Below are positions 6,936 through 20,271 of a stretch of 64,000 nucleotides of DNA, in pieces. The notes under the pieces are model-generated. The model did no database searches and was not told where the DNA came from. It saw only the letters and a program-made list of their open reading frames with translations. Source of the stretch: Terriglobales bacterium. Its GTDB lineage: Bacteria; Acidobacteriota; Terriglobia; Terriglobales; Acidobacteriaceae. Positions within the stretch are counted from its first letter, which is position 1; every line of letters starts with the position of its first letter. Location of the stretch: the NCBI GenBank assembly GCA_015655585.1, contig JAATEV010000115.1, forward strand, positions 29,197-93,196. The letters are read 5' to 3'. The translations under genes and the position numbers were made by a program.

Positions 6936-7883
6936 TCAAACCTTAAACGATTTCAGCACCTGCTCCACATCAGCGAGTTGCAACAGAAGTTGCCTTTCAT
7001 GCTCCTGAAAAAATGCCCGCAGCATATCGAGCTGAGATGTTGCCGAGCTGTTGCCAATGTCATCGCGAAGCTGTTCCGTTTTCCGTCGACAAACGCTGTA
7101 GAGGATTGGTCTAATCATGGGATGCACTGCCTGACGATCAACATCCATAACATTGGACGCATTAAAAAAGTTCTCAGTGATCGCCCAGCTAGGCGTGAGA
7201 TTGCGTACCTGGTGCCGCCATCCGGAGGGCGTAAACATGGTCTCTCCCGCTTTCAATATCGCTCTGAAACAGCGTACTGTTCGGAACGCCGGAAACTTGT
7301 CGAAATCTGGATTAAAAGCATCAGCCACACCGCAATACGACTCAGGCAAATCATCCGGTGGAAATAAGACCCATTCTTTTTCACCGAAGATCTGGGTCAG
7401 CCAAGCGTGTGTTCCGCTTGTGTCAACGTGCAATGGAGAACCTGTCGATCGAGGCCCAATAAAAAACCATCGAAATGACGGTCTACTATGAACTGGAAAA
7501 TCTGCAAACCAATCATCGACAAAAGCGGGAGTCTTGTAGTCATCACATAACTCGTCGCCGAAGTGAAGATCTTTGAGATATAGCGGACCATTCTTGACTG
7601 GATATTCATCCGGATTAAAGATGTATGCGATGTACTCGGAGAGGCGAGCTTGCTGCTTCTCATTGAGGGAGTCGGTCAACTCGACCTGAACCTCTCCATA
7701 TTGTGTAACAAGCCACTCCCATGTCCATTTCTCAAGAGCCTGCCAGTTAGCAGAGGCATCCGTAATAATAAGCGGGATGCGAGGAATTAGATAATGGCTA
7801 TAGAATTCCTCTGCGGTGATAGAAGATACAGAAGCAAGTTCTACTTCATTCGAAAAAATAGAATTGCCAGTCATGATATCCAT
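6936..7883 (-). CDS. JmjC/cupin_8-type Fe(II)/2-oxoglutarate hydroxylase
   Basis: 315 residues. The double-stranded beta-helix of the cupin_8/JmjC-like family is visible. The iron ligands would be His152 and Asp154 in 'SPLHVDTSGTHAW' and His224 in 'GWRHQVRNL', with the 'GEKEWVLFPP' strand and Asn in 'ITENFFN' as in JMJD-type protein hydroxylases. Such enzymes hydroxylate amino-acid side chains in peptides or proteins using O2 and 2-oxoglutarate. GAGG lies 7 nt before ATG 7883. It follows the MDR reductase by 74 bp and fits as a late tailoring enzyme of the small-protein pathway. That role is inferred from position only. Confidence 0.75.
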   Translation of the reverse strand: MDIMTGNSIFSNEVELASVSSITAEEFYSHYLIPRIPLIITDASANWQALEKWTWEWLVTQYGEVQVELTDSLNEKQQARLSEYIAYIFNPDEYPVKNGPLYLKDLHFGDELCDDYKTPAFVDDWFADFPVHSRPSFRWFFIGPRSTGSPLHVDTSGTHAWLTQIFGEKEWVLFPPDDLPESYCGVADAFNPDFDKFPAFRTVRCFRAILKAGETMFTPSGWRHQVRNLTPSWAITENFFNASNVMDVDRQAVHPMIRPILYSVCRRKTEQLRDDIGNSSATSQLDMLRAFFQEHERQLLLQLADVEQVLKSFKV

Positions 7884-7957
7884 TAGGTCCTCGACCTTTC
7901 AACATCCTATTGAGTTGCGCAAATGTCTCCCTACAGGGGCTACCCCTATTACTTCGC

Positions 7958-8950
7958 TCAAGGCACGAGTACAATTTTCCCGCACTGCTGATTTGACTCC
8001 ATGTATCGATGTGCCTCGACAACGCTTGTGAGAGGAAAAACCCGGTCGACAGAAGGATTGATAACTCCCTCCTCTAAGCGGTCTAGGATAAACTTTTCGG
8101 CCTTCTTCCTCTGCTCAGGAAAACGAACCATGGAGAGATTTCTATACGCATGGACCACAACACACTTCTGCAGAGCCAACAGCAATGGAAACACGGTTAA
8201 CTCGGTACTCAGTGTTCCGTACAGAACTATGCGGCCTCCAAATGAAGCTGCCTGTACTAATTTAGAGACCATGCTGCCTCCGACAGCATCGAACATGACA
8301 TCGGCGCCTGCGCCTGAAGTAATTTCCGCAACGCGTGCAAGCATATCCTCCTCTGTCGTAACGAGAACATCGTACGCGCCGGAATCCATAAGATACATTT
8401 TCTTCAAGGGATTCCGTGTAGTAGCTATTACTTTTGCATTCACAGATCTCGCCATCTGCATAGCAATTGCTCCAACGCCACTGCTGGCTGCAGAAATAAT
8501 TACATACTCTCCAGATGTAAGTCCCCCTGTATAAATTAATCCCCCATAGGCAGTTAATGCCGCCATCCAAATGGAAGCAGCATCTACCGCTGGCAAATAC
8601 TCAGGACAAAGAGTAAGCGAATATTCAGGCATGACAACAAGTTCGCCATAGCTACCATATTCGTGCATGGAAAATATGGGAAGAGTGGCAACACGCTGTC
8701 CTTTTCTAAAATAAGTTACCTCTGAGCCGATCTGTTGAATAATGCCTACAGCCTCAAAACCGAGGCCGGAAGGATATTTATTAGGCACTTCAAGATATTT
8801 TCCTAACCGAAATGCCAGTTCAGCACGATTCAATCCAATCGCTTCAACAGACAGCAATACTTCATTCGCTCGCAGCTCAGGAATTGGCCGCTCCTCAACC
8901 TTGAGTACATCTGCAGAACCTGGTTCATAAAAAACAACAACACGTGGCAT
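7958..8950 (-). CDS. Zinc-free MDR oxidoreductase (quinone/enoyl reductase type)
   Basis: 330 residues from ATG 8950, which has AGGTGA just upstream; a GTG at 8959 overlapping the previous stop is possible. It is a medium-chain dehydrogenase fold with a GroES-like N-terminal half ('GLNRAELAFRLGKY', 'GLGFEAVGIIQQIG') and a nucleotide-binding half ('AASSGVGAIAMQMARS'). The structural and catalytic zinc cysteines of alcohol dehydrogenases are missing, as in quinone oxidoreductases and stand-alone enoyl reductases. In this cluster it is the only candidate for the enoyl-reduction step of chain building, or for reduction of a conjugated product. Substrate unproven. Confidence 0.8.
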   Translation of the reverse strand: MPRVVVFYEPGSADVLKVEERPIPELRANEVLLSVEAIGLNRAELAFRLGKYLEVPNKYPSGLGFEAVGIIQQIGSEVTYFRKGQRVATLPIFSMHEYGSYGELVVMPEYSLTLCPEYLPAVDAASIWMAALTAYGGLIYTGGLTSGEYVIISAASSGVGAIAMQMARSVNAKVIATTRNPLKKMYLMDSGAYDVLVTTEEDMLARVAEITSGAGADVMFDAVGGSMVSKLVQAASFGGRIVLYGTLSTELTVFPLLLALQKCVVVHAYRNLSMVRFPEQRKKAEKFILDRLEEGVINPSVDRVFPLTSVVEAHRYMESNQQCGKIVLVP

Positions 8951-8955
8951 AACGA

Positions 8956-9633
8956 TCACCTAGGAACTGCGATACGAATCTCGCAGCCAAGACTAGCATA
9001 ACCACTGACAGGCGCAAGCACTACCACCTCACCTTTCAAATCAGCTTTTTGTACAAAGTGGCGGATCTCCTCGGTCGTGTATTTCTCTTCAGATCTGCTT
9101 TCCTCAACCCCAGCCTGACTTCGCAGTCTATTGAATATTTCAAGCGCTCTCGGATCTGCATCGCGACGTACTTCATGGATGAGAGCCACACCGCCAGGCG
9201 CAAGGCAACGACGAACCTCAATCAAAGCTGCGGATGGATCGGCCAGATGATGTAACGTTGACCGACTAGCGATAAAGTCCAGACTACCGTCGACAAAGGG
9301 AAGCTGATGCATATCGCCATGCACGACTCGGATGCGATGACAAAACATTTCCTTCTGGATGTTCTCCCGAGTCACATGCAGCATGTCCTCAAAGTAATCG
9401 AGTCCAATAAAATCCAGTTGATTAAATTCAGGCATTGATGCCAGTCGGAGCAAAAATCGGCCAGTGCCACAACCTGCATCCAGAAAGCGACGGCCACCAG
9501 GGTTACTACGAACCTCCTGACGAACCCGCAGAAGAAGAAGGTCGTCGAATCTCCCCAAAAAACCATTTGTAAAGCGATCATAAATCTGAGCCGAGTAATG
9601 CACCGGCATGTTCTCGCGCTGTTCCACACTCAT
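8956..9633 (-). CDS. Class I SAM-dependent methyltransferase
   Basis: 225 residues. SAM-binding motif I is 'FLDAGCGTGRFLLRL', followed by an acidic residue in 'FIGLDYFEDML', motif 'VVHGDMHQLPFVDGSLD' and 'RSTLHHLADP..AL.E..R.LAPGG', typical of the Methyltransf_11/UbiE-like group. Substrate could be carbon, oxygen or nitrogen; the sequence does not decide. ATG overlaps the stop of the upstream synthase gene (ATGA), showing translational coupling within the biosynthetic operon. Confidence 0.85.
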   Translation of the reverse strand: MSVEQRENMPVHYSAQIYDRFTNGFLGRFDDLLLLRVRQEVRSNPGGRRFLDAGCGTGRFLLRLASMPEFNQLDFIGLDYFEDMLHVTRENIQKEMFCHRIRVVHGDMHQLPFVDGSLDFIASRSTLHHLADPSAALIEVRRCLAPGGVALIHEVRRDADPRALEIFNRLRSQAGVEESRSEEKYTTEEIRHFVQKADLKGEVVVLAPVSGYASLGCEIRIAVPR

Positions 9634-10826
9634 GAGGGCGCTCCTACGTTATGTGCAGTCACATGTGCTACTGCATTGAGCAATAGAAATTCTCTATCTG
9701 ATGGTTTTGATTCGGTGTCCTTTTGGACTTCCACAAGAATTCGATCAAGCATATCGGATGAAAAATAATATCCCCTTTTATTCAGATAGGCTTCTATGGC
9801 AGCACGTCCGCTATGTTTGCCAATAACAAGCACGGCATCTTTGCCACCCACCAATGCAGGGCGAAATGGCAAATATGTATCGATGTCTTTCATAAGCCCA
9901 TCCTGATGCACTCCAGCCTCTGTTGAAAACACATGCGAACCAACAACAGACTTATTCGGAGCAACAGGAATACCTGTCTCACGAGCGACAAGATGGCTAA
10001 GTGAAGTCAGGTGGTCAAGCTTTACAGAATGCCTGCATTTGTATTGCTCCGAATGCACCGATAACGTAAGAGCAACTTCTTCGAGAGAAGCATTCCCAGC
10101 ACGTTCGCCAAGTCCGTTTATGGTGCATTGCACCACACGTACACCTTCTTCAATTGCAGCCAGAGTATTGGCCGTCGCTAAACCAAGATCATCATGGAAG
10201 TGTGCGGCCAATGGAATCTTGTCTAGCGCGGAAACATGTTCCCGTATATATCGAATCGATTTACGCACCTGTTCAGGCGTCATAATTCCAACGGTATCCG
10301 GAAAAGAAACGGACGTAGCTCCAGCATCTATTGCCTCCTTATAGGCTTCACATAGAAAGTCGGGCTCTGTCCGTGAAGCATCTTCGGGGCTGAACGAGAC
10401 CAGACGAAAGCTCTTACGCGCATAATGAATGCTGCTAGATATCATTTCCAGAATCTCAATCTTGCTTTTGCGCAATTTGACTTCCCGATGGAGCTTGCTT
10501 GTTGCCAGAAAGATATTAACCGAACTTCGAAATGGATTTGCATTTTCAAAAGCCACACGAGCAGCATCAATATCGCCGGGCAAAGCGCGGCAGAGCGCCA
10601 TAACTACCGGCCCACGCAGATTAGCCGCAATAATTTTTACGGCCTCAGTCTCCGATGATCCACATGCAGGAAAACCCGCTTCTATTGAGTTGATACCGGC
10701 TTCTGCTAGAGCTTGTGCAATCAGAAGCTTCTGCTCTGGACGCAGAGAGGCACCTATCATCTGCTCTCCATCACGCAGAGTCGTATCACTCAATAGAACC
10801 TGACGTAAATGATTCGAATCAGTCAT
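9630..10826 (-). CDS. LeuA/NifV-like acyltransferase (isopropylmalate/homocitrate synthase family)
   Basis: 398 residues if started at ATG 10826, which gives 'MTDSNHLRQVLLSDTTLRDGEQ' and overlaps the MaoC gene by 8 bp; a longer start at 10883 would overlap by 65 bp and seems unlikely. It is a DRE-TIM (HMGL-like) barrel: TTLRDGEQ carries the metal Asp and catalytic Arg, 'AAHFHDDLGLATANTLA' the metal HxH, and 'NGLGERAGNASLEEV' and 'GSHVFSTEAGVHQDG' are family marks. These enzymes condense acetyl-CoA with a 2-oxo acid. The C-terminal LeuA allosteric domain is missing, as in NifV-type enzymes, so feedback control by leucine is not expected. No leuBCD partners lie here. In context it likely makes an unusual acid building block. 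Confidence 0.85.
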   Translation of the reverse strand: MTDSNHLRQVLLSDTTLRDGEQMIGASLRPEQKLLIAQALAEAGINSIEAGFPACGSSETEAVKIIAANLRGPVVMALCRALPGDIDAARVAFENANPFRSSVNIFLATSKLHREVKLRKSKIEILEMISSSIHYARKSFRLVSFSPEDASRTEPDFLCEAYKEAIDAGATSVSFPDTVGIMTPEQVRKSIRYIREHVSALDKIPLAAHFHDDLGLATANTLAAIEEGVRVVQCTINGLGERAGNASLEEVALTLSVHSEQYKCRHSVKLDHLTSLSHLVARETGIPVAPNKSVVGSHVFSTEAGVHQDGLMKDIDTYLPFRPALVGGKDAVLVIGKHSGRAAIEAYLNKRGYYFSSDMLDRILVEVQKDTESKPSDREFLLLNAVAHVTAHNVGAPS

Positions 10827-11289
10827 AATAGCGCACCATGAACTCCGCAACGCAGGCGGGAAGAACTCCGCCGTCACGTTCAACAGTCACCAGCCACACC
10901 GCTTGCGTTGAGCTCTTCAATCGCTCACATCGCATAAGACGGACACGTCCACGAATCAGAGAACCCACGGGAACAGCCGAGACAAATCGAACATAATTCA
11001 CACCAGTAACCAGGCCGTACTGAACACCTTGCATCTTTACACCACCCATCAGAAAGTGAGCAGCCATGGCAAGACTAAATAAACCATGAGCGATCGTTCC
11101 CTTAAAAGGGGACTCCGTCTTCGCCCGCTCCGGATCGACATGAATCCACTGTTGATCCATACTAAGTTCAGCAAAAGTATCAATCTTCTCCTGCGTAATC
11201 TTGAGATAAGGAGTAAGAGCGACATCTTGATTCTGTAATTTCTGCAAATATTCAAATCCAGCAATAATATGCTGTTCCATTAAATCCAT
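10819..11289 (-). CDS. MaoC-like hydratase/dehydratase
   Basis: 156 residues, a single hot-dog domain. The catalytic pair Asp45-x4-His50 is seen in 'LSMDQQWIHVDPERA', followed by 'SPFKGTIAHGLFSLAMA', the signature of R-specific enoyl hydratases. It would dehydrate the 3-hydroxyacyl intermediate produced by the KR of this cluster. ATG overlaps the KS stop by one base (TAATG), so translation is coupled. Confidence 0.88.
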   Translation of the reverse strand: MDLMEQHIIAGFEYLQKLQNQDVALTPYLKITQEKIDTFAELSMDQQWIHVDPERAKTESPFKGTIAHGLFSLAMAAHFLMGGVKMQGVQYGLVTGVNYVRFVSAVPVGSLIRGRVRLMRCERLKSSTQAVWLVTVERDGGVLPACVAEFMVRYYD

Positions 11290-12509
11290 TAGCTAACCCT
11301 TTCCACAGCGATGGCAGCCACATTTCCACCAAATGCAAATGAGTTGGAGAGCGCAACCCGAATCTGTTGCTTGCGAGAAGCAGTACAGACAAGATCGATA
11401 TCTTCAAAACCAGGTTCTGGATTATCCAACCATAGTGTTGCCGGCACGCAGTCGTTTTGCATCGCCAACAGAGTAGCAATAAACTCAACACTCCCTGTGG
11501 CTCCCAGAGAGTGGCCATGATGACCTTTAGTAGAACTCACAGCAACAGGGCTACCCCCATGTCGCCTTGTAAGTAGTTCCCGAATTGCAATTAGCTCTGC
11601 TTTATCATTCACTTCAGTTCCCGTACCATGGGCGTTGATATAGTCAAGACGACTCAAATTGTCCTCGCTCTGTCCCAACGCATTCCACATTACCCGAGCC
11701 CCTGTCTGCCCTGTCGGATCAGGAGAAGTAGGATGGTACGCCTCATTGACCGCGCTATAACCAATCATGCGCGCAAGTATATTTGCATTGCATCGCCTTG
11801 CCATCTCCTCTTCTTCAAGCACCACCAGTGCAAATGCATCGCCCAGCATCATTCCATCGCGATCTGCATTGAACGGATGGCAACCATTCTTCCCAATCAA
11901 TCGAAGAATGTTGAACCCTGTCAGGGAAATATCGCTGAAGTACCCATAACCACCAGCGAAAACACGGCGCGCACGTCCCTGACGTATCCAGTCATATCCC
12001 GTTCCAATGGAGCTTGTTCCCGAAGCACATGCAGTTGAGATCAGCGACGATGGCCCCTTTACCCCTAGTGTTTCTGTAAGCTCATGCAGAAACGCAGCCG
12101 AGCTCAAGCTAGTGTGCGATTCGACATAACTACCTAGAGCATTTACTTCCCCTCGCTGCACCTTTAGAAAGTCTAGATAGCGTGACGTGGCTCCTCCATT
12201 CGAAGACCCCATACACAGACCAATATCATAGGGGGATAAGCCTTCAGGAGAAGATCCCAGACTATCCAGCACATCGGAGATAACCTCTCCCATCAAGCGG
12301 CTTGAACACAACTCAGCGCTGCGTGGATCGCTCGGCACCTCTGGAATAACCGCGGCCTCCTTTGAGCGGAATACCCAATGACTTACATCGAAGCGGGTAA
12401 TATCTTTCCTGCCTGGCTGCATAGCGACCAGACCTTCCCAGAAGAGATCGATGCCACGTCCATATGGACTCCAGATCGCCATACCGGTCACAACAACAGA
12501 TCTGTTCAT
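11289..12509 (-). CDS. Beta-ketoacyl-ACP synthase, FabF-like, catalytically complete
   Basis: 406 residues. The full Cys-His-His triad is present: Cys161 in 'ISTACASGTSSIG', His294 in 'NAHGTGTEVND' and His333 in 'KGHHGHSLGATG', with Lys328. It extends acyl-ACP by decarboxylative condensation with malonyl-ACP. The neighbouring gene at 13252 is a KS-fold protein without Cys, so the two probably form a KSalpha/KSbeta heterodimer as in type II PKS and aryl-polyene systems. It overlaps the FabG-type gene upstream by 4 bp. Confidence 0.92.
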   Translation of the reverse strand: MNRSVVVTGMAIWSPYGRGIDLFWEGLVAMQPGRKDITRFDVSHWVFRSKEAAVIPEVPSDPRSAELCSSRLMGEVISDVLDSLGSSPEGLSPYDIGLCMGSSNGGATSRYLDFLKVQRGEVNALGSYVESHTSLSSAAFLHELTETLGVKGPSSLISTACASGTSSIGTGYDWIRQGRARRVFAGGYGYFSDISLTGFNILRLIGKNGCHPFNADRDGMMLGDAFALVVLEEEEMARRCNANILARMIGYSAVNEAYHPTSPDPTGQTGARVMWNALGQSEDNLSRLDYINAHGTGTEVNDKAELIAIRELLTRRHGGSPVAVSSTKGHHGHSLGATGSVEFIATLLAMQNDCVPATLWLDNPEPGFEDIDLVCTASRKQQIRVALSNSFAFGGNVAAIAVERVS

Positions 12510-13255
12510 AAGCTGCCTCCTCCATCCAACTCAATGCACTGACCGACAACGTAAGTAAAGTCTGGACGAGCAAGCGCCGAGACAACCGCTGCGACCTCAT
12601 TAGCCTGTGCAATGCGGCCAATAGGGATGCGCTGTCCCATGTGGGTTAATGCTTCCCGGTCATTCGTACCGAGCATCTCCGTTTCCGTGAATGCCGGAGC
12701 AACAGCATTCACACGAATTCCCTTGGAGATCAGTTCACGTGCCATCCCCCGGCTCAAATTTGTAAGCGCTGCCTTCGAGGCGCTATATGCCGTCAATCCA
12801 ATCTGCGGCTGAGAACCGGAGCGGGAAGAGATATTGATAATGGCACCGGACTTTTGTGGCAACATCAGACGAATCGCTGCCTGAGAGCAAAGTACGGTGC
12901 CCTTAAGATTTGCCTCAAAAACTTCAAGAAACTTACTCCATGGCGTCAGAGCAAAGAGCGCCGAGTGCGTAACACCTGCATTGTTCACCAGTACATCGAG
13001 TCTCCCATGTCGACGACGTATCTCTTCAAACATCCCGCGAACCTCATCGGACTCACATGCATTCGCTCGATAAATCCACGCATGTCCTCCATCACCCTTA
13101 ATGTTGGCGCAAACACACATCGCCGCATCATGACGACTGACATAATTGATAACAACGGTATAACCATCCTTTGCCAGCCGCTCACAGATAGCTCGTCCAA
13201 TACCACGAGAGCCACCTGTAACAAGCGCGACTTTTTCGGTAGAGTCACCACTCAT
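12506..13255 (-). CDS. FabG-type 3-oxoacyl-ACP reductase (SDR)
   Basis: 249 residues. A classical short-chain dehydrogenase: NADPH loop 'VTGGSRGIGRAI', 'VLVNNAG', catalytic Ser in 'INISSRSGSQPQIG' and Tyr-x3-Lys in 'AYSASKAAL'. It reduces the 3-oxoacyl-ACP made by the KS. 4-bp overlaps with both neighbours indicate coupled translation. Confidence 0.9.
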   Translation of the reverse strand: MSGDSTEKVALVTGGSRGIGRAICERLAKDGYTVVINYVSRHDAAMCVCANIKGDGGHAWIYRANACESDEVRGMFEEIRRRHGRLDVLVNNAGVTHSALFALTPWSKFLEVFEANLKGTVLCSQAAIRLMLPQKSGAIINISSRSGSQPQIGLTAYSASKAALTNLSRGMARELISKGIRVNAVAPAFTETEMLGTNDREALTHMGQRIPIGRIAQANEVAAVVSALARPDFTYVVGQCIELDGGGSL

Positions 13256-14454
13256 GGCCTATCTCCTATGACGAAGGCTGAGTTTTGTCCGGACATTTCC
13301 AGGCTTATCACCACTCCAAATCCATTCGAAATTGAGACCGGAGCTTCCGTAACTATATTGGTGTCAAAGGTCTCTTCTGTCCGACAAGTGCCAACCGTCG
13401 GCGGTAGCACCTTATCGCGCATAGCAAGAACCGCAGCGAAAAACGATGCACTTCCTGAAGCGCCCCACATTTCTCCTATACCACCTTTGATAGAAAAAAT
13501 CGCTGGCCGATGAGGAAACACGGCGGAGATAGCTGCAAGCTCGGAGCTGTCGATAGAAGAAACTCCATTTGCGGCTCCTGAAATAAATACAACCTCATCT
13601 GGATCGACATTGGCCTCAACTAAACTACGACGAATTGCTTCAGCAATATCGTCTGTACTACGTTCCGCCGGATTCTTCCATGCAAGGCTATCTGTAACCG
13701 TACCGAAGCCTTTCAGATAAGCGAGCGGCTTGGCAGAGCGAGAAGATACGAAACCGGATCGTTCCAGTACAAAGAAGACACTTCCTTCACCGGGAATCAA
13801 ACCATGCGATGAAGAACTATAAGGCTGACCGGCACCGCCGCTCGATCCTGCACAGCAACTCAACCGAGCCCTGTAGCACAGCTCTGAAACATACTCTGAG
13901 AGCTCATCCATACCACCCGCCACCATAACATCGGCACTATCACTGCGAAGTTGGTCCAGTGCGGCCCCGATTGCAGGAGGACCAAAGTGCATTGAACTTG
14001 GTCCACGAAGTTTGAGCTGTATTGCGAGCGAACCTAGAACACTATTCGCAATGGTCTGTACAAACTGCAAACCACTCGCACCGCTCGGTCCCTTCGTCCA
14101 AAGCGTCTCATAATACTGACCGATAATCTGATGCTGACCAAAGTTACGATTGATCAGCAGGCCAGCACGTTCTGGAGCAACACCTGTAAGCTCTCCAGCA
14201 GATCTCCAGGCCTCTTCCGCAGCCAGTCGTGCAAGCAATGTAGGACGTGTTGGACGCGATAGACCTGAAGATGGAACCTGCTCACTCAGCAGCTCGATCG
14301 ACGGAGCAAGCATCGCAAGACTTGTACGTCCCAGGTGCGATCTCATAATCTCTGGCGCTCGTTCATTTCGCAAGAGTTTGTCCCACGCTGCTTCAACGCC
14401 AAGCCCATATGCAGAGACACACCCCATCCCCACGATTGCCGCGCTTGCATTCAT
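13252..14454 (-). CDS. Chain-length-factor-like KS (KSbeta), lacks active-site Cys and His residues
   Basis: 400 residues of thiolase/KS fold aligned end to end with the neighbouring KS. The nucleophile loop 'GPSSLISTACASGTSSIG' of the active KS is replaced by a shorter 'GPSSMHFGPPAIG', the NAHGTGT His by 'SGAANGVSSID', and the second His segment by 'KGGIGEMWGASGS'. Every catalytic position is therefore lost, as expected for a chain-length factor that shapes the heterodimer pocket. It is less likely a pseudogene because the frame is intact and it is translationally coupled on both sides. Its presence argues for a type II PKS-like machine with a defined chain length rather than ordinary fatty-acid synthesis. 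Confidence 0.85.
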   Translation of the reverse strand: MNASAAIVGMGCVSAYGLGVEAAWDKLLRNERAPEIMRSHLGRTSLAMLAPSIELLSEQVPSSGLSRPTRPTLLARLAAEEAWRSAGELTGVAPERAGLLINRNFGQHQIIGQYYETLWTKGPSGASGLQFVQTIANSVLGSLAIQLKLRGPSSMHFGPPAIGAALDQLRSDSADVMVAGGMDELSEYVSELCYRARLSCCAGSSGGAGQPYSSSSHGLIPGEGSVFFVLERSGFVSSRSAKPLAYLKGFGTVTDSLAWKNPAERSTDDIAEAIRRSLVEANVDPDEVVFISGAANGVSSIDSSELAAISAVFPHRPAIFSIKGGIGEMWGASGSASFFAAVLAMRDKVLPPTVGTCRTEETFDTNIVTEAPVSISNGFGVVISLEMSGQNSAFVIGDRP

Positions 14455-15995
14455 CTAACCTCACTGCCTTTCTGTTGCTCTTCTGAAGAAGTAGATGCAG
14501 TAATTCGCTCATCAAATATAGCTAGCATCTTCTGCTCCTTCGAAGAGAGAGCACCCATCCCCTGATTCAACACAAAGTGAGTCGGCATCTCCGTTGAAGT
14601 AAGCCATCGACTATAAAACCTTCGCAACTGTTCGATGGATTGCAGCGAGCCCTTCCGCACTGACAACGTTGCAACTGGAACCTGCCCCCAAAAAGGATGA
14701 GACTGTGCATGAACCACAGCATTCATCACGTCGGGATGACGAAGCAGAACCGATTCGATCATCTCCGCCGCAATCAGAACACCCCCCCTGTTGATAGAGC
14801 GGTCGAGTCTTCCGCGGATATAGAGTCGTCCCTCATCAAACTCGCCAAGATCCGTGGTTCGCAATACATGATCGCCTCCCTCCACCCACACCTCATCAAC
14901 ATAAGAGCGCATCAACGAGCTACTGCGAACCCGAATCTCAGATATCCCATCCTGAGTTGCATCAATGCGAACCTCAAAATTTGGCAACGGCTTGCCAACA
15001 CAAGCAGGATCGATCGGGTCGCGGTCGACGAATAGAGTCGCCACACGCGGTCCTGCCTCTGTAAGCCCGTAAGTAATGGCGAACGTAGTAGCTGGCAGAA
15101 GATCCATCGCATCTGCCAGAAGCTCTTTCGAAACTCGTCCAGCTCCCACCGTAACAAGACGCAATTCCGGACATCTTCGACCTGTAGCACGCAAGCCTTC
15201 AACAAAAATCTTCAGCATTGCCGGAACCGTCGAAAGCGTTGTAATTTTCCCTTCTTCCAAATTGCGACAAAGTGAAGGAGCAAAAAGAGGCTGACGCGGG
15301 CAAAAGAGCGTCGCTCCTACTGCCAGATGACATAAGCATTGATGGATCAGAGCATACGCATGAGCAACCGGTAATACAACCAGAGTGCGGTCTTCATCCC
15401 TAAGGCCAAGCGAACTTATATTGGAACGGATATTGGAAAGCACGGAACGATGCTGAAGAACCACACCTCTAGGAGAGCGTGTCGATCCTGAACTCCAGAT
15501 AATAAGTGCAGGATCAACATCAATCACCGGATGCGTATGACTCACTCTATCCAAAGTTTTAGCCGTAAAGATACGGATTCCAGTAGGCATAACAACCTCA
15601 TGCCATGACTCAGGAATGAGGTTCGCTCCGCTGAATTCAAAATCTGCCGGAGTAATTACACCTTCCAGATTTGAATCTACAGCCATCTGCTCCAGCCACT
15701 CCGTAGTGCGGCTTCTCTGCATTGGTGCAGCAACCGCACCCAGGCGAACAAGGGCAAAGAGTAAGATAAAAAAATCCGCCGAGTTATCGGCGATGAGCCC
15801 CCAACGCTGAAATCGTTCAATCCCGAAATCAGACAACTCCTTCGAACGCGCAATCGAACGCTCTCGCAACTCCGCATACGTGACGGATGCATTATCTTCG
15901 ATCGCGACGCGCGTTCCATAGAAGCGTGCAGGCCAATCCAGCAGATCACCAATGCAGAACGGCGCGCCGCCCATCGCCTCACTCAAATTCATCAT
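14451..15995 (-). CDS. AMP-forming acyl/aryl ligase (ANL superfamily)
   Basis: 514 residues. The adenylation motifs are in order: P-loop 'IIWSSGSTRSPRGVVLQH', 'ITYGLTEAGPRV', 'TTDLGEF..GRLYIRGRLDRSINRGGVLI' and a C-terminal Lys in 'ALSSKEQKML' at the place of the usual GK motif (that motif is degenerate). It activates a carboxylate with ATP and, next to the ACP, most likely loads it onto the ACP as starter unit or onto CoA. Candidate substrates are the product of the LeuA-like enzyme or a fatty/aryl acid; sequence alone does not tell. Confidence 0.88.
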   Translation of the reverse strand: MMNLSEAMGGAPFCIGDLLDWPARFYGTRVAIEDNASVTYAELRERSIARSKELSDFGIERFQRWGLIADNSADFFILLFALVRLGAVAAPMQRSRTTEWLEQMAVDSNLEGVITPADFEFSGANLIPESWHEVVMPTGIRIFTAKTLDRVSHTHPVIDVDPALIIWSSGSTRSPRGVVLQHRSVLSNIRSNISSLGLRDEDRTLVVLPVAHAYALIHQCLCHLAVGATLFCPRQPLFAPSLCRNLEEGKITTLSTVPAMLKIFVEGLRATGRRCPELRLVTVGAGRVSKELLADAMDLLPATTFAITYGLTEAGPRVATLFVDRDPIDPACVGKPLPNFEVRIDATQDGISEIRVRSSSLMRSYVDEVWVEGGDHVLRTTDLGEFDEGRLYIRGRLDRSINRGGVLIAAEMIESVLLRHPDVMNAVVHAQSHPFWGQVPVATLSVRKGSLQSIEQLRRFYSRWLTSTEMPTHFVLNQGMGALSSKEQKMLAIFDERITASTSSEEQQKGSEVR

Positions 15996-16279
15996 CAGCC
16001 CAGCCTTGGCGCTTCTGCTTTTTCATGAATCTCGCACCGCAGGTAATCTGCCAGTGTAGAGACGCTGAAAAAATCTGAGGCTTGAATGGTATCCAGAGGA
16101 GATTGAAATTTATCTGAAAGAGCCGCAAGAATCTCTAGACTATTCAGAGAGTCAAGCCCAATACCACCTGCAGCTTCAGCGCCAAAAAGCGGTGCGTCCT
16201 TCGCAATGCTATCTGGTGAAATAGAAAGCCCTAGCGCATCTACGATTGTTTGCTGAATAACTTCTTCTAAATGATCCAT
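15995..16279 (-). CDS. Acyl carrier protein
   Basis: 94 residues from ATG 16279, chosen because GGAGG lies 7 nt upstream and the protein then has normal ACP length. The phosphopantetheine attachment Ser44 is in 'GIGLDSLNSLEI', followed by typical helix III/IV sequence ('ASDFFSVSTLADYL'). It holds the growing chain for the KS/CLF, KR and dehydratase encoded downstream. Its stop overlaps the ligase start. It is the only ACP in the cluster. Confidence 0.9.
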   Translation of the reverse strand: MDHLEEVIQQTIVDALGLSISPDSIAKDAPLFGAEAAGGIGLDSLNSLEILAALSDKFQSPLDTIQASDFFSVSTLADYLRCEIHEKAEAPRLG

Positions 16280-16361
16280 CGCATATCCTCCGGAAAAAAT
16301 AAGTATTCTTACCTGCAAGATGTCACTCTTCAGACGATGGGAAAGGATTGCAAAGAAAACT

Positions 16362-17429
16362 TTATATCGTGTTTGGAATGTCTATCTGGTATTTCTCCGC
16401 CACATGCATAAGATTTGTCCAGAGATGCGACGAGACAGGAATACCATCGCGAAGACGCTGCTTCTCAACTCTCCCTTCGCGTTCGCCGGCCATCAATATA
16501 TCTTCAAAGCCGGGAGCGATCCTCGCCCCCTTAAGAATCTTCTTCAGTTCATCGACCCTCGCAACGAAATTATCCAGCGATAGAAACCGCTGCACATCTA
16601 TCGCGAGAAAAGTGTGACTCACTCCCGCTGGACGATCTCGGACTCGCAACGAGCCGACCTGATGTGCCATAGCACCCCCGCTCAACACTCCACAGAGAAT
16701 TTCAATCGCAACGGCAAGGCCGCTGCCTTTAAACCCGGCGTCCTTCCCTCCGAGCGGCATCAGCGTGCCCTTCATCGCGGCGGTCGCACTCGTTGTCAGA
16801 TCTCCCATAGCATCCAGCGCCCAGCCTTCAGGAATTGTCGCCCCTCCAGACAGTACGACATCGACAATCTTCCCCGCCGCTACTGTCGTTGTTGCCATAT
16901 CAAGAACCCAACCTCCCGGAACAGTCACACAAATCGGATTCGTACCAAGCAACGGCTCGACGCCTTGCCATGGAGCGACCAGAGGCGATGCATTGGAGAA
17001 GACAATTCCGATACAACCTTCCAGTGCCATCATCTCTCCCCAAAATGCAGCCCTGCCAAAATGGTTCGAATTTCTTGCGACTACTAACCCGGTTCCAAAT
17101 CCACGAGCAAGCCGAACCGCTTCCTCGCAACATTTTGCTGCAACAACTTGTCCTAATCCGTTCTCTCCGTCGTACAGGATGCAGCTAGAAGATTCTTCTA
17201 TAACTGATCCCACAGATTTGGGATCGATATTTTTCGCAGCCAGTTGCTCAACATAGGGAGGAACCAACTGGATGCCATGCGAATCGACACCACACAAATT
17301 CGCCTTGACCAGCGACGTTGCCACACATGCAGCATGATCTACAGGAACATGGAGCCTACAAAAAATATCACAAATGAATCTCTGAAGAGCTTCATGGCAT
17401 ACCAGATTTTTCTTAATCTCTACAGGCAT
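16362..17429 (-). CDS. Malate/L-lactate dehydrogenase-family (Ldh2-type) NAD(P)-dependent reductase
   Basis: 355 residues. The family's 'NLCGVDSHGIQLVPPYVEQL' and 'ARNSNHFGRAAFWGEMM' segments, 'NASPLVAPW.G.EPLLGTNPI' and 'LDMATTTVAAGKI' are all visible. Members reduce or oxidise 2-hydroxy/2-oxo acids or cyclic imino acids (for example piperideine-2-carboxylate). It starts 1 bp after the acyltransferase-like gene. Possible roles here: reduction of a 2-oxo acid from the LeuA-like branch, or of a ring formed from an ornithine side chain. Both are inference. Confidence 0.82.
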   Translation of the reverse strand: MPVEIKKNLVCHEALQRFICDIFCRLHVPVDHAACVATSLVKANLCGVDSHGIQLVPPYVEQLAAKNIDPKSVGSVIEESSSCILYDGENGLGQVVAAKCCEEAVRLARGFGTGLVVARNSNHFGRAAFWGEMMALEGCIGIVFSNASPLVAPWQGVEPLLGTNPICVTVPGGWVLDMATTTVAAGKIVDVVLSGGATIPEGWALDAMGDLTTSATAAMKGTLMPLGGKDAGFKGSGLAVAIEILCGVLSGGAMAHQVGSLRVRDRPAGVSHTFLAIDVQRFLSLDNFVARVDELKKILKGARIAPGFEDILMAGEREGRVEKQRLRDGIPVSSHLWTNLMHVAEKYQIDIPNTI

Positions 17430-17430
17430 A

Positions 17431-18576
17431 TCAGACTTTCAGTGAAACCTCGCGAGAGGATTTATCTTGGTTCTTCGAAGTCACTACCGGCAGAATAAAA
17501 TGCGATTCATAGAGAGTACGCAATGCCAGTTTCAACTCAGTCTCTGAAAACATATGCTTAAGCGCACTCACAATCTCGGTGCCTCTCCTCTCCTGGCTCA
17601 GGGCCTGACATAGGGAATTCATGAGTGGTGTCATTGCAAGTGCGGTTCCGCATCTGAGACTCACAAGAACTTCCCCCTCAGACATCTTCAGAACCTCAAC
17701 ATTTTCAGCATTCATCCTCCAGTTCTTTTCAAGAAATCCCTCATCATCAAGAATGGAAGAAGACGGAAGCATCGGCTCGAAACGATTCCGCAAATTGAAA
17801 TGGCACCATTCTTCCCAGCACGGCAGATCCGCGCGAACTTCACTTTCCAGAATGGAAACAAATGTCTGGGAAGCGCGTTGGCAGAACCCCGCAATCGTTT
17901 CAGAGGAGTGCCTGGTTAGCGGCGCTTCAAAACGGACAACCATGCCACCGATGCCATCATTATGTGTCACAGCGAGAATCAAGGGAGCGCCAGTCTTTGC
18001 GCTCACAAAGGCAAGCCCCATTCGAACCAATATCTGTGTCTCGCAGAAATCAACACTGACAGCACTTTGAGGAGACTGGCTGGCAGTTGTTCCAGTCAGG
18101 CCATCGAACCAGCCGATCAGCGTTCTTCGTTCACGAAGCGCACAAACCATCTTCCAGATCGCTGTAGGTTCTTCTGAGTTAATGTACTTTACCGGATCGA
18201 TAAGAGTATCGGTGTAACTGGATTCACGTGCGTCCCAGCGTCGTTGCTCTTCTTGAAAGTTGGCCGCATCCATTAATAGAGTTGTCGGAAGGTCAGCCTT
18301 TTTATTCAGAACCAGAGGAATCCAATTGTAAGGACCAACTTGAAACGACGTAACAACAGCTCCTCGACCAGCTTCGTGTGCCTTCCGTAAATACTCCAGC
18401 CCTACAATCTTCACTCGCGATAACTCTTGATTGTTGATCCAGTACCGAAGATTATCGTTGCGCCTTCTGGCACAGCGAGCAGCGTGCGTCCACAACGTAT
18501 CGCGTGCAATCGTCTTACGGAGTGCAAGCCGCATCCCTAAAAAACTAAGTTGCTCAATGTCGTTCAGAGTTGTCAT
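17431..18576 (-). CDS. LpxL-like acyltransferase-fold protein with C-terminal PqqD/RRE-like domain
   Basis: 381 residues. Residues ~55-265 resemble the LpxL/HtrB lipid-A acyltransferase fold: 'VVTSFQVGPYNWIPLVL' sits where family members have a TGHFGNWE-type H-x4-E motif, and 'LIGWFDGLTGTTA' and 'VRMGLAFVSAKTGAPLILAV' match later blocks. The catalytic His and Glu appear replaced by Gln79 and Asn84. Residues ~285-364 look like a small winged-helix PqqD/RRE-like domain ('EVLVSLRCGTALAMTP', 'EIVSALKHMFSETELKLAL'). Hypothesis: it transfers the ACP-bound chain onto the neighbouring small protein, docking through the RRE-like domain. No transmembrane segment is evident. It overlaps the arginase gene by 4 bp. 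Confidence 0.6.
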   Translation of the reverse strand: MTTLNDIEQLSFLGMRLALRKTIARDTLWTHAARCARRRNDNLRYWINNQELSRVKIVGLEYLRKAHEAGRGAVVTSFQVGPYNWIPLVLNKKADLPTTLLMDAANFQEEQRRWDARESSYTDTLIDPVKYINSEEPTAIWKMVCALRERRTLIGWFDGLTGTTASQSPQSAVSVDFCETQILVRMGLAFVSAKTGAPLILAVTHNDGIGGMVVRFEAPLTRHSSETIAGFCQRASQTFVSILESEVRADLPCWEEWCHFNLRNRFEPMLPSSSILDDEGFLEKNWRMNAENVEVLKMSEGEVLVSLRCGTALAMTPLMNSLCQALSQERRGTEIVSALKHMFSETELKLALRTLYESHFILPVVTSKNQDKSSREVSLKV

Positions 18577-19802
18577 AGAAGACAGCTTCCCTCCACGTCC
18601 CTGCTCGAAAAGACCGCTCCTAGCAATGTCATCAGAAGATGCAATCCACTCGATGCAGTTCTAAGATACTGATCCCGATCCGGATTGATCTCAACGATAT
18701 CGACACCGACAACGCGACGACTCTTTCCAATCACAGAAAGAATCTCTTTCACTGCATCGAAAGATAGTCCACCCGGAATAGGAACATTGGTTGCAGGAGC
18801 AACCAAGGGATCCAGCACATCGATGTCGAACGATACATACACAGGCATACCTTCCGGAAAATTCGAGAGAACTCCTGCGGCTTTTTTCTGCAAGGCATCC
18901 GAAGCGCCCATAAGTACGTGATTCAAATTCAAAGAAGGCTGCTTCATCATTTGAAACCCTTTAAGACCAACGCTCACAAATGGCATCCCGGGATTTTCTT
19001 CAATAAGACATCTTGCGAAATTTCCATTCGTCGGCACACTGTATCTCCCCCGCTCTGCCAGGTCAGAGTGGGCATCCAAATGCAAAACAGCAATGGGTTC
19101 ATGGCTCGCACTCAGCACTCCCGAGATTGTCCAATACGATATCGAGTGATCCCCCCCTAGAACAACCGGAACGCTTTTTAAAGCAACACATCTCCGCACA
19201 AGTTGAGACAAACGAACTCCATATCTCTCGGCTGGCTCTCCCAACTGCGGCACAACATCACCAGCATCCACAAATGTCACACCCTCTAAAACGTGGTGCC
19301 CAGCAGCAACATCGAACCAACCACGCGGAGAAAGGTCCGCATCTACTGCGTACTCCAACTGGCTGGATGCAACACGAATTGCAGCCGGCGCTGCTCTCGC
19401 TCCACTCCCAGTCTGACTTGAAAAATCCGATGGAGCCCCAAACACCGTGACCTGCGCTTCCCCTGCAGAGCCTTTTGGACAATTCAAAAATCTCGGAAAG
19501 AAATCCGATATAAGCCCCTGACCGGGTAACTCCTCAGCCGCTTCGACCAGCAACCCAGCATTCAAAAGCTTTGCCAGTGTTGTCGATGTAAGATTCCACT
19601 GCGAATACAGAGCCGCAATGTCTGTCGGCGAATCCAACGCCTTCAAACACTCCGCTACATCCTGCGAAATAACGAATTCAAGATTTGGTAAAGGTCCACG
19701 AGCCGTGTAAGACCCCGCAGCCTGCACCAGAAGTTCAATATGAGGAGAGCGCTGCAACAGAAACGGTCTCCTCATATTGTTTTGGTTAGCATAATCGTTC
19801 AC
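18573..19802 (-). CDS. Arginase-family ureohydrolase with N-terminal PqqD/RRE-like domain (candidate peptide arginase)
   Basis: 409 residues from GTG 19802 (GGTGAT upstream). Residues ~15-90 resemble a PqqD-type RiPP recognition element ('IELLVQAAGSYTARG', 'FVISQDVAECLKALDSP', 'LAKLLNAGLLVE'). Residues ~115-405 are a full ureohydrolase with all manganese ligands: His219 in 'GGDHS', 'HLDAHSD' (243-247) and 'SFDIDVLDP' (324-332). Free arginases and agmatinases have no such N-terminal domain. Peptide arginases (OspR-type) are known to turn Arg in ribosomal peptides into ornithine. The gene lies 46 bp behind a small protein with one Arg, so I infer that this is its substrate. A free guanidino-compound hydrolase remains possible. 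Confidence 0.8.
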   Translation of the reverse strand: MNDYANQNNMRRPFLLQRSPHIELLVQAAGSYTARGPLPNLEFVISQDVAECLKALDSPTDIAALYSQWNLTSTTLAKLLNAGLLVEAAEELPGQGLISDFFPRFLNCPKGSAGEAQVTVFGAPSDFSSQTGSGARAAPAAIRVASSQLEYAVDADLSPRGWFDVAAGHHVLEGVTFVDAGDVVPQLGEPAERYGVRLSQLVRRCVALKSVPVVLGGDHSISYWTISGVLSASHEPIAVLHLDAHSDLAERGRYSVPTNGNFARCLIEENPGMPFVSVGLKGFQMMKQPSLNLNHVLMGASDALQKKAAGVLSNFPEGMPVYVSFDIDVLDPLVAPATNVPIPGGLSFDAVKEILSVIGKSRRVVGVDIVEINPDRDQYLRTASSGLHLLMTLLGAVFSSRDVEGSCLL

Positions 19803-19848
19803 AAATCACCGTTCGATACAGCATGAAACTTAGCTGTACGGCTATCAA

Positions 19849-20154
19849 TTAGCCATGGGTGATCGCAGTAACTGCGGTGAGGCCATGCGCCAGAGCAGCG
19901 ACCTTGACGACCTCTTCAGCAGCCAGACCAGCAGCAGAACGGCTGGCAGCCTGCGCGCCCAGCCCGACGTGAAGGATGCCGTTTTGCAGAGAGGCGGATG
20001 CAGTTGCTTTGCTTACAGTGGAAAGAGATGCGCCGTGACCTGCGACAAACACGGTAGCCGTGTCTGCGCCCGCAGGCTTAGTGTAAACAGCGTCAAACTT
20101 TCCACTCTTGGCAAAAGCGGCGGGAATGCTCTTGGGAATGACAAGATTAGCCAT
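19849..20154 (-). CDS. Small Ala-rich protein, candidate RiPP precursor with a single Arg
   Basis: 101 residues, about a quarter Ala, no Cys, no signal peptide. GAGG 7 nt before ATG supports the start. It is the first gene after a strong promoter and precedes a peptide-arginase-like and an acyltransferase-like gene, both with RRE-like domains. Arg72, in 'GAQAASRSAAGLAAEE', is its only arginine. This is notable because the next gene encodes an arginase-fold enzyme. The N-terminal part ('NLVIPKSIPAAFAKSGKFDAVY', ending 'FVAGHGASLSTVSK') could be the leader or docking part and the Ala-rich C-terminal third the core. I recognise no named family; Nif11- or NHLP-type leaders are not apparent. The opposite strand is also open here but lacks a ribosome-binding site. 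Confidence 0.7.
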   Translation of the reverse strand: MANLVIPKSIPAAFAKSGKFDAVYTKPAGADTATVFVAGHGASLSTVSKATASASLQNGILHVGLGAQAASRSAAGLAAEEVVKVAALAHGLTAVTAITHG

Positions 20155-20211
20155 AGAAACCTCGGATGATTTTTTGAGATTTGGCCCGGGAGGAAACTTG
20201 TTATCCAGATA

Positions 20212-20227
20212 TCAGTCTTTTGACTGA
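20212..20227 (-). other. Small hairpin in the 5' leader of the candidate precursor
   Basis: TCAGTC and GACTGA form a 6-bp stem with a 4-nt loop about 60 nt upstream of the small-protein start and ~10-25 nt after the expected transcript start. It may stabilise the mRNA 5' end. Confidence 0.35.
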
Positions 20228-20242
20228 GAAATTACGTGGTTG

Positions 20243-20271
20243 ATCCTATAGAGCAGTCATACAAGTGTCAA
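20243..20271 (-). promoter_or_regulatory. Sigma70-type promoter of the biosynthetic gene train
   Basis: Read on the minus strand: a perfect -35 TTGACA (20266-20271), a 17-bp spacer and a -10 TAGGAT (20243-20248; 4 of 6 consensus). It lies 89 bp upstream of the small-protein start and after the end of the DinB-like gene. With mostly overlapping genes downstream, it could drive everything from 20154 to 6936 or beyond. Confidence 0.6.

Follow-up and report, generated by a model that had tools for sequence, protein, structure and literature searches.

Organization of the locus

The window analyzed here, a 64,000-nucleotide stretch of a contig from a Terriglobales bacterium (JAATEV010000115.1), contains a run of 14 consecutive open reading frames (ORFs), all on the minus strand, between positions 6936 and 20154. 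Families were assigned through Pfam and NCBIfam profile searches of the window's proteins. The genes are, in order, those for a small protein, an arginase, an LpxL-like protein, an Ldh_2-family oxidoreductase, an acyl carrier protein (ACP), an AMP-forming ligase, a protein resembling a chain-length factor (CLF), a ketoreductase (KR), a ketosynthase (KS), a MaoC-type dehydratase, a LeuA-like synthase, a methyltransferase, an MDR-type reductase and a JmjC/cupin hydroxylase. A gap of 46 bases separates the small protein gene from the arginase gene; the latter overlaps the LpxL-like gene by 4 bases, and gaps of 1 and 43 bases lie on either side of the Ldh_2 gene. From the ACP/ligase to the KS/MaoC junction the overlaps are 1, 4, 4, 4 and 1. 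The MaoC and LeuA-like genes overlap by 8 bases if the latter starts at the ATG at 10826 and by 65 with the listed TTG start. Overlaps of 4 bases follow at the LeuA-like/methyltransferase and methyltransferase/MDR junctions, and a gap of 74 precedes the JmjC gene. The ORF list and the measured junctions thus agree with an earlier note on this DNA, which had described 14 successive minus-strand genes, many with overlaps of 1-8 bp. The families named in that note match Pfam and NCBIfam, but only 13 genes were named, the Ldh_2 protein (16362-17429) having been omitted.

The good promoter that the note had placed before the small protein gene corresponds to an existing site, TTGACA-17-TAGGAT, at 20243..20271 on the minus strand (10/12 matches). 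Such sites are, however, no commoner than in shuffled sequence: 15 were found between 6500 and 21000, against a shuffle mean of 13.9 (sd 3.3). Since the GC content of the 14-gene run is 49.6% against 57.5% in the remaining window (about 8 points lower), its composition suggests a later arrival. The segment from 6936 to 20154 combines low GC with absence from 60 related genomes, as in an acquired island. Pfam scans revealed no peptidase, transporter or GNAT family among the 14 genes, and Pfam and NCBIfam scans no acyltransferase family besides the LpxL-like protein.

The first three genes encode the following products. RRE denotes the RiPP recognition element, RiPP a ribosomally synthesized and post-translationally modified peptide.

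19849..20154, minus strand: small protein of 101 residues, the likely substrate, with a single arginine, R72; four homologues, no Pfam family
18573..19802, minus strand: PF00491 arginase (Arginase 7.3e-54, residues 117-394) with an RRE-like N-terminal extension (about residues 1-110)
17431..18576, minus strand: protein of LpxL/PatA fold with a C-terminal RRE (about residues 276-367) and Q79-x4-N84 for the catalytic H-x4-E, from predicted model, profile and alignment

A small protein with one invariant arginine

In Pfam, the small protein had no match at E 0.5; in NCBIfam, none was better than 0.2. Four homologues, at 69-78% identity, were found among 33 candidates. R72 is kept in 5/5 family members, which bears out the Arg-bearing small protein of the earlier note; four of the five have no further arginine, and one (P0002) has a second at position 84. 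At the operon's arginine frequency, the probability of finding at most one arginine in 101 residues is 0.0097. The constant parts of the protein include an N-terminal NLVIP motif and the residues following R72. As in RiPP pathways, this small gene adjoins genes for modifying enzymes with predicted RREs. Because conservation runs over the entire length, which would be unusual for a leader-core precursor, the comparison leaves open that the small protein is a folded carrier. Structure prediction of the small protein yielded a poor AlphaFold model (pLDDT 54.7).

The arginase and its N-terminal extension

The catalytic domain of the arginase scores 183.5 bits with PF00491, against a cut-off of 22, and its metal motifs GGDH, DAHSD and DID are all intact. 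An OspR-type peptide arginase, as proposed in the note, was ruled out, this type being defined by PF12640; among 30 relatives of the arginase, PF12640 appeared in one, at E 0.29. Pfam PqqD matched none of the same 30 proteins. Profiles of the extension were then compared with 30 PqqD sequences from a phylum-wide genome sample, with control slices cut from the arginase domain and the LPLAT domain. The match was 94.8% with 30 members in the profile, 80.2% with the thirteen closest, 92.8% with the 17 distant members alone and 8.9% with the seven closest; none of twenty domain slices exceeded 1.1%, and the LPLAT domain taken whole gave 0.4%. Compared with each other, the extensions of the arginase and the LPLAT protein matched at 51.2%. 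Among the matches listed, the extension model recognized 46 of 120 arginase homologues at 0.01; of these, 29 had trained the model, one was the window's own protein and 16 were others. Together, these profile comparisons give good but not final support to an RRE-like extension, so that the RRE claimed for the arginase is supported at the level of profiles, with the poor score of the seven closest members to be set beside it.

The extension-bearing arginases among the matches listed (P0014-P0133), with proteins from Pseudomonas guariconensis (P0076) and from Spirosoma terrae (P0126) among them, may form a wider, mostly unnamed PF00491 class of possible peptide arginases. RRE-like arginases without an LPLAT protein occur elsewhere. 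Within 8498-10858 of a Thermoactinospora rubra locus (L060, NZ_MSZZ01000011.1), the RRE-like model recognizes the extension of an arginase at E 5e-4; a relative at L051 is matched weakly (E 0.05). The arginase at L151 (9612-10973) matches the 30-member model from position 11 and hence bears the extension; no other cluster gene was matched nearby. At L150 (5408-9057), an RRE-like arginase in two frames has two ORFs in its vicinity, one metallo-beta-lactamase-like and one bearing, by eye, an HEWGH zinc-protease-like motif. On a Mammaliicoccus sciuri plasmid (L049, NZ_CP077961.1, 6599-10128), an arginase-family protein has an extension that is similar by eye and unmatched by the extension model; it is flanked by two PLP-decarboxylase-like proteins, and a tiny ORF with SRPRLK at its end precedes them. 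This locus is possibly that of another arginase-modified peptide.

An LPLAT-fold protein with a predicted RRE

The LpxL-like protein has the LPLAT fold. Its C-terminal part is predicted to form a three-strand, three-helix winged helix like solved RREs; profile and model agree on this point, as the note had anticipated. A sequence search of the PDB with the LPLAT alignment returned three chance-level matches only. In the alignment, D158 is kept in 19/19 rows and H259 in 18/19, while C178 is constant in 8/8 family members and replaced by F in the compared LPLATs. Q79, N84, D158, C178 and H259, the same in all eight members, are thus candidate residues of a putative rebuilt site.

Candidate chain-building and tailoring genes

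The remaining eleven genes, all on the minus strand, encode the following products.

16362..17429, minus strand: Ldh_2-family NAD(P) oxidoreductase of malate/lactate/sulfolactate type (PF02615 6e-105; nearest solved chain 1v9n, malate dehydrogenase)
15995..16318, minus strand: ACP, possible ATG start at 16279 (PP-binding 3.8e-6; LDSL motif)
14451..15995, minus strand: AMP-forming acyl ligase (PF00501 2.4e-52; AmcH 142.3 bits, below the cut-off of 370)
13252..14454, minus strand: CLF-type KS-like partner without active-site Cys (PF00109 8.2e-15, PF02801 5.4e-17; HFGPP versus TACASG of the KS)
12506..13255, minus strand: KR of the SDR family (PF00106 6.5e-57; YSASK motif)
11289..12509, minus strand: KS with Cys and two His motifs (PF02801 7.4e-29; nearest solved chain 9s5h_B, 212 bits)
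10819..11289, minus strand: MaoC-type dehydratase (PF01575 2.1e-20; D-x4-H motif)
9630..10883, minus strand: LeuA-like protein of the isopropylmalate/homocitrate synthase family, likely ATG start at 10826 (PF00682 1.5e-80; nearest solved chain 3rmj, isopropylmalate synthase)
8956..9633, minus strand: SAM methyltransferase (PF08241 1.2e-23)
7958..8959, minus strand: MDR-type reductase (PF00107 4.9e-21)
6936..7883, minus strand: JmjC/Cupin_8 hydroxylase, candidate ornithine hydroxylase (PF13621 9.9e-25; JMJD6 nearest solved, 116 bits; HVD and GWRH motifs)

The KS has Cys and both His motifs, and the KR, MaoC protein and ACP show the motifs usual for their families. A KS with its catalytic residues is thus accompanied by a partner without Cys, as in type II KS/CLF pairs; the closest solved relatives of the partner are FabF enzymes (99.5 bits), chain C of 9s5h scoring 64. 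Pfam and motifs thus recover the dedicated KS/CLF chain set of the earlier note, and PF13621 together with the JMJD6 similarity its JmjC/cupin hydroxylase. From the MDR reductase and the LeuA-like synthase, a chain that is reduced or branched could be predicted as readily as a polyene. As a guess, a branched or hydroxylated starter would come from the LeuA-like and Ldh_2 enzymes.

Distribution in other genomes

Co-occurrence of the first three genes was read from equal base counts of contigs, so that the following placements are inferred. The small protein, LPLAT protein and arginase appear together on a contig of 14529 bases. Two contigs, of 14254 and 32688 bases (the latter from Candidatus Solibacter), would carry the LPLAT protein with the arginase, and another of 4193 bases the small protein with the arginase. 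The named relatives come from Candidatus Solibacter. The genome-neighbourhood comparison suggested in the note therefore yielded an arginase partner for three of the seven other LPLAT proteins (none was matched for four, on contigs of 2679, 5005, 1635 and 33755 bases) and no second complete cluster in 60 relatives, 395 phylum-sample genomes or 398 class-sample genomes, the two samples being overlapping draws from larger groups. Apart from the window's own genome, the 398 class-sample genomes gave no match to the LPLAT protein at 1e-8 or to the arginase at 1e-40, the 395 phylum-sample genomes gave 12 weak, short matches to the LPLAT protein, and the 60 relatives one weak match. Relatives of the LPLAT protein were not matched on plasmids, and in viral contigs only two 9-residue matches were seen. 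A profile search of genome contigs with the LPLAT alignment returned 45 pattern matches and no relative, the same type of search with the arginases mostly ordinary agmatinases (best 80 of 582 relatives), and a search of 2 genomes no match.

A proposed pathway and its alternatives

We tentatively favour, at somewhat less than even chances, a pathway in which R72 is converted to ornithine by an RRE-guided arginase, likely hydroxylated, and acylated with the operon's own chain. R72, the only arginine of the 101-residue protein, would likely be hydrolysed by the PF00491 arginase with its predicted leader-binding RRE, and the ornithine then likely hydroxylated by the JmjC enzyme. The acyl chain would be built by the operon's ACP, ligase, KS/CLF pair, ketoreductase and dehydratase, and delivered by the LpxL-like protein, in which a PatA/LpxM-type fold and a second RRE are predicted to be combined. 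Both RREs would presumably bind the constant N-terminus (NLVIP) of the small protein. R72 as the target, the order of steps and the ornithine amine as the end point of the chain are likewise putative, as is catalysis of the transfer by the LpxL-like protein through a rebuilt site; acyl transfer in this operon is something that we infer. A further proposal is possible if doubtful: the RRE-fused LPLAT protein would be the first of a non-GNAT class of peptide side-chain acyltransferases, with new residues replacing His and Glu, and would place a KS/CLF chain on the ornithine that the arginase makes in a folded small protein. The product would be a hybrid of ribosomal protein and type II polyketide.

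The catalytic motif weakens the case for this transfer. The LPLAT fold is present, but Q-x4-N takes the place of H-x4-E in 8/8 family members whereas 11/11 compared LPLATs keep the pair, so that the transfer to ornithine by a different fold, as put forward in the note, is a possibility. The same substitution speaks for an acyltransferase that is dead but retained as an adaptor: its fold would hold the ACP-bound chain and its RRE the small protein, while another enzyme or an uncatalysed thioester attack would make the bond. We consider this unlikely: D158, H259 and C178 look like a maintained pocket, and the 14 genes offer no further acyltransferase family. Alternatively, the chain might never be joined to the small protein, a peptide-modifying unit (arginase, LPLAT protein, JmjC enzyme) standing beside a separate small-molecule pathway, or the ornithine might later be freed into a small molecule. 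The chain set (LeuA, Ldh_2, methyltransferase, MDR, KS/CLF) is indeed large and would make sense alone, and no homologous cluster with this set could be read. Yet the RRE-bearing protein of acyltransferase fold is located between the arginase and ACP genes, with junctions of 1-4 bases, and this arrangement makes a separate pathway rather improbable.

It could also be argued that the arginase serves as a ureohydrolase of ordinary metabolism and that its extension is no RRE, the peptide being bound by the LPLAT protein alone. The PF00491 catalytic domain and the poor PqqD match of the seven closest extensions (8.9%) would fit such an enzyme. This is nonetheless very unlikely: the match climbs to 80.2% when 13 members are used and to 94.8% when 30 are, whereas none of 20 null slices exceeds 1.1%, and 16 homologues outside both the training set and the window (of 120 among the matches listed) match the extension model.

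Comparison with known systems

In the papers compared here, it is GNAT enzymes that add fatty chains to ribosomal peptides, and PF12640 is the family of most peptide arginases. A search of open-licence papers offered no RRE fused to an arginase in a RiPP context and, among the matches listed, by title or abstract start, no RiPP paired with an LpxL-type acyltransferase. A survey of RREs reported 1,158 fused Pfam families (PMC12710340); the words 'acyltransferase', 'agmatinase' and 'ureohydrolase' are absent from its main text. An RRE fused to the LPLAT fold or to PF00491 could serve as a search handle, one that Pfam alone did not reveal here.

Several known pathways share part of the predicted chemistry. 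Goadvionins, lipolanthines and lipoavitides combine a ribosomal peptide with a polyketide or fatty chain; they differ in being lipidated at the N-terminus and are named in the context of GNAT lipidation, where the passage mentions no arginase step (PMC9505594, PMC13060382). The KS-CYF pathways of cispentacin and coronafacic acid likewise use an ACP, an adenylating ligase and a KS with a KS-like partner, whereas extra KR, MDR and LeuA-like genes are found here (PMC10698177). A cispentacin-type synthase was rejected: AmcB (15.9 bits against 80), AmcF (211.2 against 325) and AmcH (142.3 against 370) all fall below their NCBIfam cut-offs, and the NCBIfam models AmcC, AmcD, AmcE and AmcG matched none of the 14 genes. 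Compared with the PatA and LpxM lipid acyltransferases, whose structures are solved, the protein described here has lost H-x4-E and gained an RRE, and the 14 genes include no lipid A or mannoside pathway.

The enteropeptin arginase KgrD is also a PF00491 enzyme making peptide ornithine; it differs in requiring a thiomorpholine beside the arginine, with N-methylation and no acylation following (PMC12703449). In the biphenomycin-like pathway, as predicted here, an arginase (PbsE) is followed by a cupin-like hydroxylase (PbsQ) acting on the new ornithine (PMC12257519), so that this order has a second precedent there; that pathway differs by its PF12640-type PbsE (PMC12703449), its MNIO and B12 radical SAM enzymes and its cross-linked product (PMC12257519).

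The closest parallel is with the selidamides phaeornamide and kamptornamide, in which arginase-made ornithine, hydroxylation (in phaeornamide) and side-chain fatty acylation follow the order predicted here (PMC9505594, PMC12703449). Selidamides have an OspR-like PF12640 arginase, a GNAT acyltransferase, an NHLP precursor and a lanthionine synthetase (PMC9505594, PMC12703449), in contrast to the PF00491 arginase with RRE-like extension, the LPLAT fold joined to an RRE, the unrelated small protein and the operon's own KS/CLF set; the missing GNAT family excludes the present cluster from their number. If the pathway holds, a similar product would be reached through other, RRE-guided folds with their own chain supply, a case of convergent evolution of peptide lipidation, and peptide engineering would gain a second acylating scaffold. 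By analogy, the predicted chemistry would be most like that of phaeornamide, in which arginine is converted to ornithine, hydroxylated and N-acylated (PMC9505594), carried out by other arginase and acyl-transfer families.
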